Below are positions 39,152 to 54,010 of a DNA stretch of 64,000 nucleotides, in pieces; within the stretch, counting starts at the first letter, position 1, and the number at the start of each line of letters is the position of its first letter. Where the stretch lies: contig NZ_CP108055.1 in the NCBI RefSeq assembly GCF_036174265.1, positions 10,106,001 through 10,170,000 on the forward strand, read 5' to 3'. The translations under genes were made by a program, and so were the position numbers. Source of the stretch: Streptomyces sp. NBC_00285 (GTDB lineage: Bacteria > Actinomycetota > Actinomycetes > Streptomycetales > Streptomycetaceae). The notes beneath the pieces were generated by a model. It saw only the letters and a list, made by a program, of their open reading frames with translations. It was not told the DNA's origin and searched no databases.

Positions 39152-39441
39152 TTGACAGGGAATGTGAAGTCGGCGGCCGCCGCCTGGATCCGTGACCGGG
39201 ACCTGCAGGCCGACTTCGAGTTCGTCCAGCCGGGCCGGGTGCCGATCGGCTCGGTGGTGGACATCCGGTTCCCGCACGGCGGGCTGCGCGTGCATTTGGA
39301 CCAGGCGGTGGCGCCCGCGTGGGATCAGGACGGTCACGAGCCGGTGCTCGGGATGTCGGTGCCGGTGGACCGGGACACGCTGATCGACCGCTGGTATGTC
39401 CATCGCATCCGCCTCGACAGCGACGGCACCGCCCGCCGGTC
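39152..39441 (+). pseudogene. Fragment of an unknown protein next to ISAs1 remnant
   Basis: The frame reads [40 protein letters not shown], then [20 protein letters not shown]. It looks like genuine coding sequence with strand-rich character but lacks a proper start and is cut where the transposase homology begins near 39442. I do not recognise the family. Confidence 0.45.
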
Positions 39442-39812
39442 CGCATCCACCTGCTCGAAGCCCTGGAGCACACCACCGGCCTGGTCCTGGCCCAGCTGGA
39501 CGTGGGGGAGACGAACGAGATCACCTGCTTCAAGCCGCTGCTGGAGACCATGGCCGACCTGGCCGGGGTGGTCGTCACCAGCGACGCCATGCACGCCCAA
39601 CGCGAGGACGCCGACTACCTTCCCGGCCGTGATGCCCACTACATCGTGATCGTCAAGGGCAACCCGAAGAAGCTCCGCAAGCAGCTCAGATCCCTTCCGT
39701 GGGCAGAGATCCCGCTGCCGGGCCGCGTGCGGGGCATCGGCCACGGACGCTCGGAGATCCGACGGACCAAGGTGGTCACGGTCAACAGCCTGCTCTTCCC
39801 CGGAGCCCATAG
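39442..39812 (+). pseudogene. ISAs1-family transposase fragment
   Basis: The frame gives [60 protein letters not shown] and a late [15 protein letters not shown]. These are the central catalytic motifs of ISAs1-type DDE transposases (the NEI and KGN blocks). Both ends are missing; about 123 of some 370-400 residues remain. Confidence 0.8.
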
Positions 39813-39945
39813 GACTTCTTGAGTCCGGTGCCCCCAGGACGGGGGTGTCGGTGGTGGTGCGGTACGGGTTCATCGGGCGGCCTCCACGGTGACGAGGGCA
39901 CACAGGACGAAGCACAGTCCGGCGAGTGCCGCCAGGACCACTTGT

Positions 39946-40321
39946 GCTTCGGCGCGGAGCTGCGGGAGTTCAACGGCGAAGGCGATCACGTCCACCTGCT
40001 CGTGCACTACCCGCCGAAAATCGCCCTGTCCAAGCTCGTCAACTCCCTCAAGGGCGTCAGCTCCCGATATCTGCGCGCGAAGTACACCGGCCGGATCAAC
40101 CAGATCGGCACCGGATCCGTGTTCTGGTCCCCGTCCTACTTTGCGGGGTCCTGCGGCGGCGCACCCCTGAGCATCGTCAAGGACTACATCGAGAACCAGA
40201 AACGCCCAGCCTGACTGGCCGTCACCCCGAGGAGCAGGGATCTCCGGCGCTACGCGCCTCCGGGCCGAGGATCGCATTCCCGCCCGGCCTGAAGGCCGGG
40301 ATTCCCTGCGAAGAACAAGCG
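39946..40321 (+). mobile_element. Truncated IS200/IS605 element: tnpA 3' end plus left end
   Basis: From about 39946 the frame encodes the last 88 or so residues of TnpA (FNGEGDHVHLLVHYPPKIAL to KDYIENQKRPA, stop at 40212-40214), nearly identical to the intact copy at 52053. The following non-coding end matches the intact element through the hairpin 40283-40300 to base 40321. There the two copies diverge immediately after a shared ATGGA flank (TCCAT on the other strand). The copy carries the HxH motif and tyrosine but has lost its N-terminus and all of tnpB. Confidence 0.85.
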
Positions 40322-50480: not shown

Positions 50481-51309
50481 GGCCGGCCGCCTTGGCCAGG
50501 AACGGCAGGGCCAGCGCGAGGACCTGGTCGGGAGTCTGGGCGTGCGGGTAGTGGCCGGCGCCGTCGATCACGGCCAGCTCGCCGAGGCCGGCGGGCAGGT
50601 CGGCGATGATCTTCTCCCCTTCGGCGCGGGGGTCGGCCCAGTCGGGGTCCAGGCTGCCTTCGACGATCAGGACCGGGCAGGTGACGTGGGCGAGCTGGGT
50701 GCCGGCGTCGGTGGGCTTGGACTTGCACATGGCCTGCAGGGCCTTCATCCGGCCGGGCTCACTCAGCGTGGCCTCTATGCGGGCCAGTTCGCTGGTCCAG
50801 TCGGCGGGCTTGGCCGGGTAGGCCACGTCGAGGTACTTCTTCCAGTCCGCCAGGCGTCCCAGGACGATGAACATTGCCAGCCGCGTGTACCCGGTCCGGA
50901 AGCGCTTGACCCGGATCAGCCCGCCCAGGTCGACCGGCTGCGCACGGGTGAACGGAGCCAGCTCGATCACTCCGCTGATCACGTCGGGCGCAGTGGCGGC
51001 CGCGATGGTCGCGGCGCCGCCGCTGATCGACTGCCCGATGATCACGGCCGGGCCGCCGAGGTGACGCACGACGGCGACCAGATCTCCGGCGATGTCGGTG
51101 CGGCTGTAACCGTCCCAGCCGAGGCTGGACTCACCGCACCCGCGGATGTCGACGTTCGCGACCCGGTAACCGGCGGCCACCAGGCCGGGAACGAGGAAGC
51201 GGTAGGAGTGCCGGCTGTCGCCGATACCGTGCGCCAGCACGACCAGAGGACCTTCCCCGGTCACGTCGAAGGCGATGGTGTCCTTGCCGATCCTCAGGTG
51301 CTCGGTCAT
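50473..51309 (-). CDS. Alpha/beta hydrolase
   Basis: The 278-residue alpha/beta hydrolase fold protein has oxyanion motif LAHGIGDSRHS and nucleophile S94 in GQSISGG. The acid aspartate is in VEGSLDPDWAD and the catalytic histidine in DGAGHYPHAQ. ATG at 51309 has GGAGG 5 bases upstream, preferred over the ATG at 51339 that has no site. First gene of a two-gene operon with the TetR regulator. Substrate unknown; esterase, epoxide-hydrolase or haloperoxidase-like roles are all possible. Confidence 0.9.
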   Translation of the reverse strand: MTEHLRIGKDTIAFDVTGEGPLVVLAHGIGDSRHSYRFLVPGLVAAGYRVANVDIRGCGESSLGWDGYSRTDIAGDLVAVVRHLGGPAVIIGQSISGGAATIAAATAPDVISGVIELAPFTRAQPVDLGGLIRVKRFRTGYTRLAMFIVLGRLADWKKYLDVAYPAKPADWTSELARIEATLSEPGRMKALQAMCKSKPTDAGTQLAHVTCPVLIVEGSLDPDWADPRAEGEKIIADLPAGLGELAVIDGAGHYPHAQTPDQVLALALPFLAKAAGRA

Positions 51310-51328
51310 GCCGTCCTCCATCAAAATG

Positions 51329-51363
51329 GCTAATTTCATTAGCTATAGACTAGCCACATTAGC
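51329..51363. promoter_or_regulatory. ATTAGC repeats, TetR operator candidate
   Basis: GCTAAT (51329-51334) and ATTAGC (51338-51343) form a short inverted repeat with a 3-base spacer. A further ATTAGC follows at 51358-51363. This AT-rich site lies 20-54 bases upstream of the hydrolase start and would control the hydrolase-TetR operon. Confidence 0.5.
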
Positions 51364-51539
51364 TATGAGGGTCAACGCCTCACCCAGCCGCGCTCGATCG
51401 GGGGCCGAGCCCGGAGCGATGGGCTGCCGCACGGCGTAGTGCTGGTTTCCGCGAGAACTACTGGGACCCTCATCACCGCAACGTTCCAGGTCGGAGTGCC
51501 CACGCACCTCACATTCCTACAGCCCGTGCTGCTCAGGAC

Positions 51540-51740
51540 ATGATCGGGTCGCTCTGGCTGCGGTGCGGGTGCGCGGCGTGGATGTACTTCATGGCGGTGC
51601 GGAGAGAGACCGAAGAGGTGGATGAGGTGGAGGGGGTCGTCAGTGTGCTGGGCCTCGTTGAGGATGCGGTCCACACGCAGGCGGCCCGCCTGGTGGCCGT
51701 GGGCGCGCAGGGGCTTGTTGATCGCCTGGATCGCCACCGG
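51540..51740 (-). pseudogene. XerD-like recombinase C-terminal remnant, frameshifted
   Basis: Leftward, the frame gives AINKPLRAHGHQAGRLRVDR and ILNEAQHTDDPLHLIHLFGL, then a shifted frame gives TAMKYIHAAHPHRSQSDPIM. This is the typical C-terminus of actinobacterial XerD-like tyrosine recombinases (TAMRYVYAAHP block). It adjoins the second recombinase fragment at 51760. Confidence 0.6.
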
Positions 51741-51759
51741 GGGCTGGGTGTCGTCGGTG

Positions 51760-51945
51760 GACCTTGGAGTGCGGGGCCCATCCGCCCTGCTTGGCGATGG
51801 CGATCTGGTCGTGACCCTTGAGCCGCGCGGACGTCGCGAGCCCGCGGTGCGGGGAGTGTCCGGTGAACCGGATCTCGATTGCGGCGCGTTCGCCGGCGCG
51901 GGTGACGATGTCGCCGATGGACTTGGGCTGCAGCCCGCTCTCCAT
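51760..51945 (-). pseudogene. Tyrosine recombinase gene, 3' part beyond the IS605 insertion
   Basis: The frame reads MESGLQPKSIGDIVTRAGER and IRFTGHSPHRGLATSARLKG, then HDQIAIAKQGGWAPHSK, with the conserved HxxR (GHSPHRG) and the block before the catalytic tyrosine. The 5' part of the same gene is at 53785-54010. Removing 51946-53784 joins the two in one frame. The catalytic tyrosine region is decayed. Confidence 0.75.
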
Positions 51946-52052
51946 CGCTTGTTCTTCGCAGGGGATCCCGGCCTTCAGGCCGGGCGGGAATGCGATCCTC
52001 GGCCCGGAGGCGCGTAGCGCCGGAGATCCCTGCTCCTCGGGGTGGCGGTCAG

Positions 52053-52481
52053 TCAGGCTGGGCGTTTCTGGTTCTCGATGTAGTCCTTGACGATGCTCAG
52101 GGGTGCGCCGCCGCAGGACCCCGCAAAGTAGGACGGGGACCAGAACACGGATCCGGTGCCGATCTGGTTGATCCGGCCGGTGTACTCCGCGCGCAGATAT
52201 CGGGAGCTGACGCCCTTGAGGGAGTTGACGAGCTTGGACAGGGCGATTTTCGGCGGGTAGTGCACGAGCAGGTGGACGTGATCGCCTTCGCCGTTGAACT
52301 CCCGGAGTTTCGCGCCGAAGCTCTCGCACACGTCCCGCATGATCGCTTCGCAGCGCGTCAGCATGTCGTCGTTGAAGATCTCACGCCGGTATTTAGTGAC
52401 GAACACCAAGTGGGCGTGAAGGTTGAAAACGACATGATTTCCTCGTCTGACATCAGGATCTGGTTCCCAGCGCGGTGACAT
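52053..52481 (-). CDS. tnpA: IS200/IS605-family transposase TnpA
   Basis: The 142-residue HUH/Y1 transposase has the HxH metal motif at H68/H70 (DHVHLLVHYPPK) and catalytic tyrosine Y134 in VKDYIENQ. It cuts and rejoins single-stranded DNA at the hairpin-marked ends. ATG at 52481. It diverges from tnpB with a 52-base gap. All key residues are present and the frame is intact, so it may be active. A truncated copy lies at 39946. Confidence 0.95.
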   Translation of the reverse strand: MSPRWEPDPDVRRGNHVVFNLHAHLVFVTKYRREIFNDDMLTRCEAIMRDVCESFGAKLREFNGEGDHVHLLVHYPPKIALSKLVNSLKGVSSRYLRAEYTGRINQIGTGSVFWSPSYFAGSCGGAPLSIVKDYIENQKRPA

Positions 52482-52533
52482 ACACCAAGTGTAGTAGGAT
52501 CAAGCGAACTCGACCGGAAGGGGGTGGGCCGAG

Positions 52534-53748
52534 ATGATCCGTGCGTACAAGTTCCTCCTGCGGCCCACCGTCCGTCAGGCGCAGGCACTGTCCGAGATGC
52601 TGCGGGATCACTGCTCCCTTTATAACGGGGCCTTGCAGGAGCGGCGTGACGCCTGGCGGCATCCGTCGAAGACAACCGTCAGGTACGGGATGCAGTCCGC
52701 GCAGCTCAAGGAGATCCGGGCGTTCGACCCGGAGTGTCAGGGCCGCTGGTCGTTCAGTTCGCAGCAGGCAACCCTGCGCCGTCTCGACAAGGCGTTCGCC
52801 GCGTTCTTCCGCCGGGTCACCTCCGGTGGCACCCCGGGATATCCGCGTTTTCGCGGGGTGAACTGGTTCGATACGGTGGACTTCCCCAAGGACGGGGACG
52901 GCTGCCGGTGGGATTCCGCCCCGCACGACCGGGTCACCCGGGTCCGCTTCCAGGGCGTCGGGCATGTGAAGGTCAACCAGCACCGTGCCGTGGCCGGCAA
53001 GGTCAAGACCGTCTCGGTCAAGCGCGAGGGCCGTCGCTGGTTCGTCGTACTGGCCGCCGAACAGGACCAGCCGCAGCCGCTGCCCGCGACCGGCTCCGTG
53101 GTCGGCATCGACCTGGGCATCGCGAACTTCCTCGCCGACTCCAACGGCGCTTTCGTGCCCAACCCGCGCCACGGCCGCCGCGCGGCCGAAAAGCTCGAAG
53201 CCGCGCAGCAGGCCCTGTCCCGGTTCCCGCGCCGCAAGGCCTCAGACCGCACCGCAGGCCACCGGCGCGCGGTGGACAAGGTTGCCCAGCTCCACGCCAA
53301 GGTACGGCGTCAGAGGCTCGACCACGCCCACAAGACCGCGCTCGGTCTGGTCCGCGCACACGATGTGATCGCGCACGAAGACCTCACGATCCGCAACATG
53401 ACCAAGGTCCCCGCACCCAGGCCCGACCCTGACCGGCCGGGTACCTTCCTGCCCAACGGGGCCGCCGCCAAAGCCGGGCTCAACAAGTCGATCGCCGATG
53501 CCGGATGGGGGGTGTTCCTGACGATCCTGCACGCCAAGGCTGAAAGCGCCGGACGGGAAGTGATCGCCGTGGACCCCCGCAACACCTCCCGCACCTGCCC
53601 CGAATGCGGGCACACCGCGAAGGAGAATCGGCCCACACAGGAAAAGTTCCACTGCGTCTCGTGCGGCCACCACGCCCACGCCGACACCGTGGCAGCCACC
53701 AACGTATTACGGGCCGGGCTGGTCCGTCGCAACGCCAACCCGGCGTAA
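52534..53748 (+). CDS. tnpB: RNA-guided nuclease TnpB
   Basis: The 404-residue protein has an N-terminal HTH_OrfB region (MIRAYKFLLRPTVRQAQALS), a beta-barrel segment and a RuvC-like domain. The three acidic residues are present: D193 (VVGIDLGIANF), E282 (AHEDLTIRNM) and D384 (HAHADTVAATNVLRAG). A zinc ribbon CPECG..CVSCG lies between the last two. All residues needed for cleavage are intact. TnpB proteins cut DNA next to a short motif using RNA derived from the element's right end. ATG at 52534 with GAAGGGGG upstream. Confidence 0.95.
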   Translation: MIRAYKFLLRPTVRQAQALSEMLRDHCSLYNGALQERRDAWRHPSKTTVRYGMQSAQLKEIRAFDPECQGRWSFSSQQATLRRLDKAFAAFFRRVTSGGTPGYPRFRGVNWFDTVDFPKDGDGCRWDSAPHDRVTRVRFQGVGHVKVNQHRAVAGKVKTVSVKREGRRWFVVLAAEQDQPQPLPATGSVVGIDLGIANFLADSNGAFVPNPRHGRRAAEKLEAAQQALSRFPRRKASDRTAGHRRAVDKVAQLHAKVRRQRLDHAHKTALGLVRAHDVIAHEDLTIRNMTKVPAPRPDPDRPGTFLPNGAAAKAGLNKSIADAGWGVFLTILHAKAESAGREVIAVDPRNTSRTCPECGHTAKENRPTQEKFHCVSCGHHAHADTVAATNVLRAGLVRRNANPA

Positions 53749-53784
53749 CGAGAAGCCCCCGGCTTCAGCCGGGGGAGGAGTCAC
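53590..53784 (+). ncRNA. Candidate omega RNA (reRNA) at the tnpB 3' end
   Basis: TnpB guide RNAs are known to span the tnpB 3' end and the right end of the element, ending at its boundary so that the adjoining host sequence becomes the guide. Here the right-end hairpin (53756-53775) and the boundary at 53784 fit that layout. The guide would begin GACGGTGTGCCC at 53785. The 5' limit is a guess; no structure prediction was run. Confidence 0.45.
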
Positions 53785-54010
53785 GACGGTGTGCCCGTGG
53801 TTGTGGAGGCGGCGCCAGGCGTAGCGGTCCGGGTGGGTGAGACCGGCGGCGTTCTTCCATGCGGTCCACGCGCGGACGGGGCAGATGGAGGGGCGGCTGT
53901 TGTAGGGGACGGGCACGATGCGGGGGCGGACTGTGGGGGCGCGCAGGTCGGCGGTGAGTCCGTCGGGGGTGTTGGCGTAGTCGCGGACGCGGTTGAAGGC
54001 GCCCTGGTTC
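53785..54010 (-). pseudogene. Tyrosine recombinase gene, part before the IS605 insertion
   Basis: Leftward, the frame reads FNRVRDYANTPDGLTADLRA, then VPYNSRPSICPVRAWTAWKN and AAGLTHPDRYAWRRLHNHGH to the element boundary. CPVRAW is the usual core-domain motif of these integrases. It joins in frame (HGHTV-MESGL) with the fragment at 51760-51945. Further upstream homology fades. Confidence 0.7.

Follow-up and report, generated by a model that had tools for sequence, protein, structure and literature searches.

The segment from 51946 to 53784 of the window, by which we mean the whole 64,000-nucleotide stretch of Streptomyces sp. NBC_00285 contig NZ_CP108055.1 that was analysed, is best explained as a whole by an autonomous IS605-group element that moves by single-strand peel and paste, a reading in which we have high confidence. 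We place the element in the IS200/IS605 family, IS605 group, as a new member. Its tnpA and tnpB genes are divergent, 52 bp apart, and lie between two subterminal hairpins; no terminal inverted repeats were seen by eye, and hairpins are present at both ends. The 10.26-Mb contig continues for about 94 kb past the window. On re-check, the coordinates, strands, frames and named residues given by the first-pass annotation were all correct, and the ends that it had proposed, 51946 and 53784, proved right to the base by the empty sites and the right-end comparison described below. The features are as follows.

51946..53784, + strand: IS605-type element, 1,839 bp from left to right end, delimited by empty sites in relatives and by a second copy
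52053..52481, - strand: tnpA, HUH/Y1 transposase of 142 aa, with HVH at 68-70 and Y134
52534..53748, + strand: tnpB, of the RuvC RNA-guided nuclease family, 404 aa, with D193/E282/D384 and a zinc ribbon
51942..51945, + strand: target tetranucleotide CCAT (CL) in the left flank, predicted TAM; present in 22 of 26 left ends
51962..51965, + strand: GGGA, the left guide sequence (GL), immediately 5' of the left hairpin
51966..51989, + strand: left subterminal hairpin, imperfect, from end comparison
53752..53755, + strand: right guide sequence GR, GAAG; present in 28 of 31 right ends
53756..53775, + strand: right subterminal hairpin, which would form the 3' part of the reRNA scaffold
53781..53784, + strand: right cleavage site CR, TCAC, the last four bases of the element; present in 30 of 31 right ends
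53785..53804, + strand: flank predicted, by analogy to ISDra2, to be the source of the reRNA guide
51759..51945, - strand: downstream part of a tyrosine recombinase remnant, 83-88% identical to four relatives (L042, L043, L045, L046)
53785..54001 (54029 in one relative), - strand: upstream part of the same remnant, 74.5-83.4% identical to the same four relatives
39946..40321, - strand: left-end remnant of the element family (L004), 376 bp, 98% identical, bordered by CCAT

Both proteins have the expected family signatures. TnpA matches PF01797 in Pfam (E 4.2e-42; 143.5 bits against a cut-off of 23) and NF033573 in NCBIfam (142.2 bits against 55), its closest solved relative is the TnpA of ISHp608 (E 1.8e-20), and it combines an HxH motif with a single tyrosine. 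TnpB matches PF01385 and PF07282 in Pfam and the NCBIfam model NF040570, guided_TnpB (261 bits against a cut-off of 100), and it falls below the cut-off of the narrower NCBIfam exception model NF038281, IS200_TnpB (187 against 425 bits). Its zinc ribbon reads CPEC/CVSC. The closest natural solved TnpB is that of ISDra2 (8bf8; E 1.6e-29), bettered only by an AI-designed nuclease, and D193, E282 and D384 align with the conserved D, E and D of 8bf8. These three residues are kept in 29, 30 and 29 of 30 full-length or nearly full-length TnpBs, respectively, and 18 of 31 loci have a TnpA frame that is open almost throughout (a manual count, from the table, of matches that begin at residue 1 or 2 and end at 141 or 142), counts that lean towards intact copies because the loci were among the best matches. 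The first-pass annotation had judged that both proteins appear functional: the catalytic residues are indeed in place, but the wording overstated an inference from sequence. From these features, TnpB may be expected to cut DNA under RNA guidance.

Joining base 51945 to 53785 gives, as had been predicted, one open frame reading ...HNHGHTVMESGLQPKSIGD..., and a 480-base query built from the joined flanks was run against 392 genomes of the genus. Fifteen loci aligned to the joined sequence, with 13 alignments spanning the junction (identities of 68-85%); eight of the 13 (L042, L043, L045, L046, and L050-L053) are ungapped within 10 bases of it. The best empty site, in L043, reads CTCTCCAT|GACGGTG, which is exactly the predicted join: 14 bases to the left and 11 to the right of the junction are identical, and CCAT is present once. 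The first-pass annotation had named an empty site with a different junction, or homologues without the joined protein, as grounds for rejecting its reading; the empty sites have the junction where it was predicted and an uninterrupted recombinase, and the predicted joined protein is found in homologues as HTVMESGL (P0001) or close variants. The target bases themselves are CCAT in four of the 13 junction-spanning relatives (L043, L048, L052, and L056), the other nine having CCAG, TCAT, TCAG and others; among the close relatives, L042 has CCAG, L045 and L046 have TCAT, and L047 has TCAG.

The frame into which the element has inserted is that of a recombinase, as the annotation had claimed, but the join does not restore a gene. 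Only residues 196-329 of 349, in L043 numbering, are represented by the remnant; since the N-terminal 195 and the last 20 residues are missing, joining the flanks restores a fragment rather than a working gene. The missing last 20 residues probably hold the catalytic tyrosine, which we assigned by eye. In L042 and L043, the recombinase is 349 aa long, with a weak phage-integrase match (PF00589; 23 bits, below the cut-off of 27.1) and no solved relative by sequence search; 61 homologues were found, some of which carry PF00589 in the database. Homology to the recombinase breaks sharply into other DNA at 51760, which we read as a rearrangement breakpoint. The adjoining block, 51201-51760, matches L055 and L059 at 94-97% identity, stops abruptly at the recombinase remnant, and includes what appears by eye to be part of another integrase.

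The genome carries one more full copy (L002, G000:C1:737882-739729), which is 93% identical to the first and has the same ends. The search for its empty site covered 246 genomes, and six of nine foreign loci were aligned (L080, L081, L083, and L085-L087), whereas L084, L088 and L089 cover one side only and were left out. L080, L081 (86%) and L083 (81%) read CCAT|G, with no element and no duplication; the L080 and L081 alignments each have one single-base gap just left of CCAT. The site reads CAT|G after a larger gap in L085 and CCCT|G in L086 and L087 (72%). Two independent sets of empty sites, one for each full copy, therefore show no target duplication. The gene to the right of the copy 2 junction encodes a response regulator (PF00072 and PF00486), and the insertion probably splits its start ATG: in L081, an in-frame stop is reached 19 codons upstream and no other start codon intervenes, which makes the split ATG the probable start, and in L080 two other start codons are possible. 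L002 itself has an upstream ATG, owing to a base difference close to the stop of tnpB, and from it the regulator frame reads through the right end; the right hairpin of this copy is imperfect.

Element ends were compared in 34 of the loci L001-L041 (L001-L004, L006, and L013-L041), 31 of them with a right end and 26 with a left end; L005, L007 and L008 were excluded as weaker matches (69-75%, in the left/tnpA part), as were L009, L010 and L012, which overlap the window copy, and L011, a recombinase match. Within the genome, the sequence shared by the four left ends of the element lineage begins with CCAT, and that shared by its three right ends runs to GGAGTCAC and then G. Because all in-genome copies share CCAT and G, these copies alone leave the membership of both ambiguous. 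The same applies to the truncated copy at 39946..40321, which the first-pass annotation had taken as independent confirmation of the left boundary: the similarity extends across CCAT, so this copy alone locates the left edge no more closely than the shared target allows. Near it, at 39300-39830, lies a transposase fragment that resembles the ISAs1 family by eye. The genome has a second left-end piece of the lineage (L006, 86%) and weaker relatives too. Across the 31 right ends of this genome and its relatives, TCAC is almost invariant, and the next base is G in 21, A in 5, C in 4 and T in 1. A kept TCAC followed by a varying base indicates that the element ends at TCAC, base 53784, and that the following position is a flank base with a preference.

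Two other readings of these boundaries deserve consideration. The ends could be misplaced by a few bases, with CCAT or the following G belonging to the element, as the G after the three right ends and the CCAT before the four left ends in the genome would allow. Yet the base after the right end varies across the 31 right ends, the empty sites of both copies contain a single CCAT (L043 for the first; L080, L081 and L083 for the second), and a four-base shift of both ends would set TCAC where L043 has CCAT; we regard such a misplacement as highly improbable. The empty sites of the relatives could also be precise excisions rather than sites that were never occupied. According to the available text of PMC5934647, IS608 excision seals the flanking donor DNA, and the two histories would therefore look alike at a single site. 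However, several relatives at 74-88% identity carry the uninterrupted site, which is likelier to be the ancestral state, and the recombinase reading frame is intact in L042 and L043. We thus consider excision unlikely; it would in any case leave the boundaries unchanged.

In the proposed mechanism, TnpA would cut the top strand just 3' of CCAT on the left and just 3' of TCAC on the right, each cut site being recognised through base pairing with the guide next to the neighbouring hairpin (GGNA on the left, GAAG on the right); the excised circle would then reinsert 3' of another CCAT, without target duplication. Strand transfer by TnpA is attributed by analogy. The four left ends without CCAT at the target place are L013, L021, L022 and L029, and GGNA is found in 22 of the 25 left ends that have the hairpin (L002, L013 and L024 being without it). 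The right hairpin has 24 distinct sequences in the 31 copies, and its pairing is largely kept through two-sided changes: pair 5 is CG in 25, GC in 5 and GG in 1, and pair 6 is TA in 12, GC in 10, CG in 5 and others in four. Pairing is not kept everywhere, since pair 4 is C-A in 5 of the 31 copies. G follows the right end more often than expected (21 of 31; p = 1.7e-4 relative to half the G+C content of the window), a preference that fits the effect of the base after the cleavage site on IS200/IS605 integration, as described in the available text of PMC5934647. This enrichment and the probable ATG split by copy 2 prompted a check for insertion into start codons as a rule. No general pattern was seen by eye, from frame and third-position GC, in the 18 of 31 copies with both flanks placed (CCAT was missed in L020 and L028, and the placement of L021 is doubtful).

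The element resembles IS608 (ISHp608 of Helicobacter pylori, IS605 group), whose Y1/HUH TnpA is the best solved match to the TnpA described here and whose tnpA and tnpB are likewise divergent. IS608 inserts 3' of TTAC and leaves this tetranucleotide in the left flank, and its cleavage sites, TTAC and TCAA, have the guides AAAG and GAAT 5' of the hairpins (PMC5934647, available text). Both elements thus insert 3' of a tetranucleotide kept in the left flank, and both have guides directly 5' of both hairpins: TTAC/AAAG and TCAA/GAAT there, CCAT/GGNA and TCAC/GAAG here. AAAG suits TTAC by position as GGNA suits CCAT, the first two and the last guide bases suiting the first two and the last bases of CCAT. 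By position, the guide/cleavage-site pattern matches that of IS608, the pairing itself being predicted. The two elements differ in target (TTAC versus CCAT), the hairpins here are GC-rich, and the best natural solved match of this TnpB is ISDra2 of Deinococcus radiodurans. ISDra2 shares the alignable catalytic residues of its TnpB, the closest natural solved relative, but it targets the pentanucleotide TTGAT and its genes overlap (PMC8612924, available text), whereas here the target is CCAT and the genes are divergent. A literature search for TnpB or IS605 elements with a CCAT target found no paper, and we do not claim that CCAT-targeting elements are unpublished. The element adds an actinobacterial, GC-rich IS605 lineage that targets CCAT, with exactly defined ends, an intact TnpB, and empty sites known for two copies; it holds little surprise and leaves ideas of how IS605-type elements work unchanged.

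The likely role of the element is the published one, in which TnpA peels and pastes and TnpB cuts the emptied site. According to the available text of PMC8612924, the RNA bound by ISDra2 TnpB is about 150 nt long and comes from the end of tnpB and the right end, about 16 flank bases are its guide, and the target pentanucleotide serves as TAM. By analogy, TnpB here would bind an RNA that combines the 3' end of tnpB with the right end. The 16-20 flank bases that follow (GACGGTGTGCCCGTGG...) would be the guide, and CCAT the TAM; TnpB would cut the emptied site, and repair would restore the element there. The reRNA, its guide, the TAM and the cutting are all carried over from ISDra2. The element is a convenient natural case for testing whether TnpB keeps an element at its donor site.

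Codon use is consistent with such an RNA. In the 30 full-length or nearly full-length TnpBs, identical amino acids are encoded by the same codon in 84%, 86% and 78% of pairs over codons 326-350, 351-375 and 376-400, respectively; the median for 40-codon windows is 70%. Raised constraint over codons 326-400 is what an overlapping RNA would require, but the sign is not specific because the value is 79% over codons 276-300 as well; among 365 windows, that of the last 40 codons ranks 43rd. Rfam found no RNA family in the window at the gathering threshold. A search of the genome for chromosomal self-targets, allowing up to 3 mismatches to a pattern of CCAT and 16 guide bases, returned 10 places versus 4 for a reversed-pattern control. 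Outside the right end of the element, the best has 2 mismatches and CCGT for CCAT, and the sole place with an intact CCAT has 3 guide mismatches; with the best matches imperfect, there is no clear second target in the genome.

The copy in the window could nevertheless be a relic that has lost the ability to move or cut although its reading frames are open. Sequence alone does not reveal activity, and the genome holds two full and several broken copies. Against this, the copy retains its catalytic residues along with the hairpin, guide and cleavage site at each end. In addition, a right-end piece of 409 bp elsewhere in the genome (L003:1501-1909, G000:C1:10102139-10102547) is 100% identical to the last 409 bp of the element, pointing to recent activity or recombination. 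We consider a relic rather unlikely and retain an autonomous element as the preferred reading. The 409-bp piece lies about 55 kb from the element, its downstream flank differs, and it abuts what appears by eye to be an amidohydrolase gene. It is conceivable, if doubtful, that this piece is a free-standing guide-RNA gene that could load the TnpB of the intact copy in trans, so that TnpB would cut or guard a second, unrelated CCAT site. If this were true, right ends that stand alone in other genomes would form a store of guides acting in trans.

Among the matches listed, at least 11 of 295 genomes have right-end matches that start after element position 1250 and reach 1839. Of the right-end matches listed, at least those in G038, G193 and G290 belong to longer broken copies; others, such as those in G108, G285 and G191, are possibly solo reRNA loci. 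Four relatives (L026, L031, L034, and L037) have tnpB, both ends and a CCAT flank, and no tnpA reading frame was found in them; they appear to be tnpB-only (IS1341-type) derivatives of the lineage, and the window copy differs from them in carrying tnpA. A cargo-carrying derivative was considered in G193, where left and right ends lie about 1 kb apart, and was rejected: the locus (L090, G193:C1:44600-46900) is instead an internally deleted copy. It is interrupted by what appears by eye to be an IS110-type transposase fragment.
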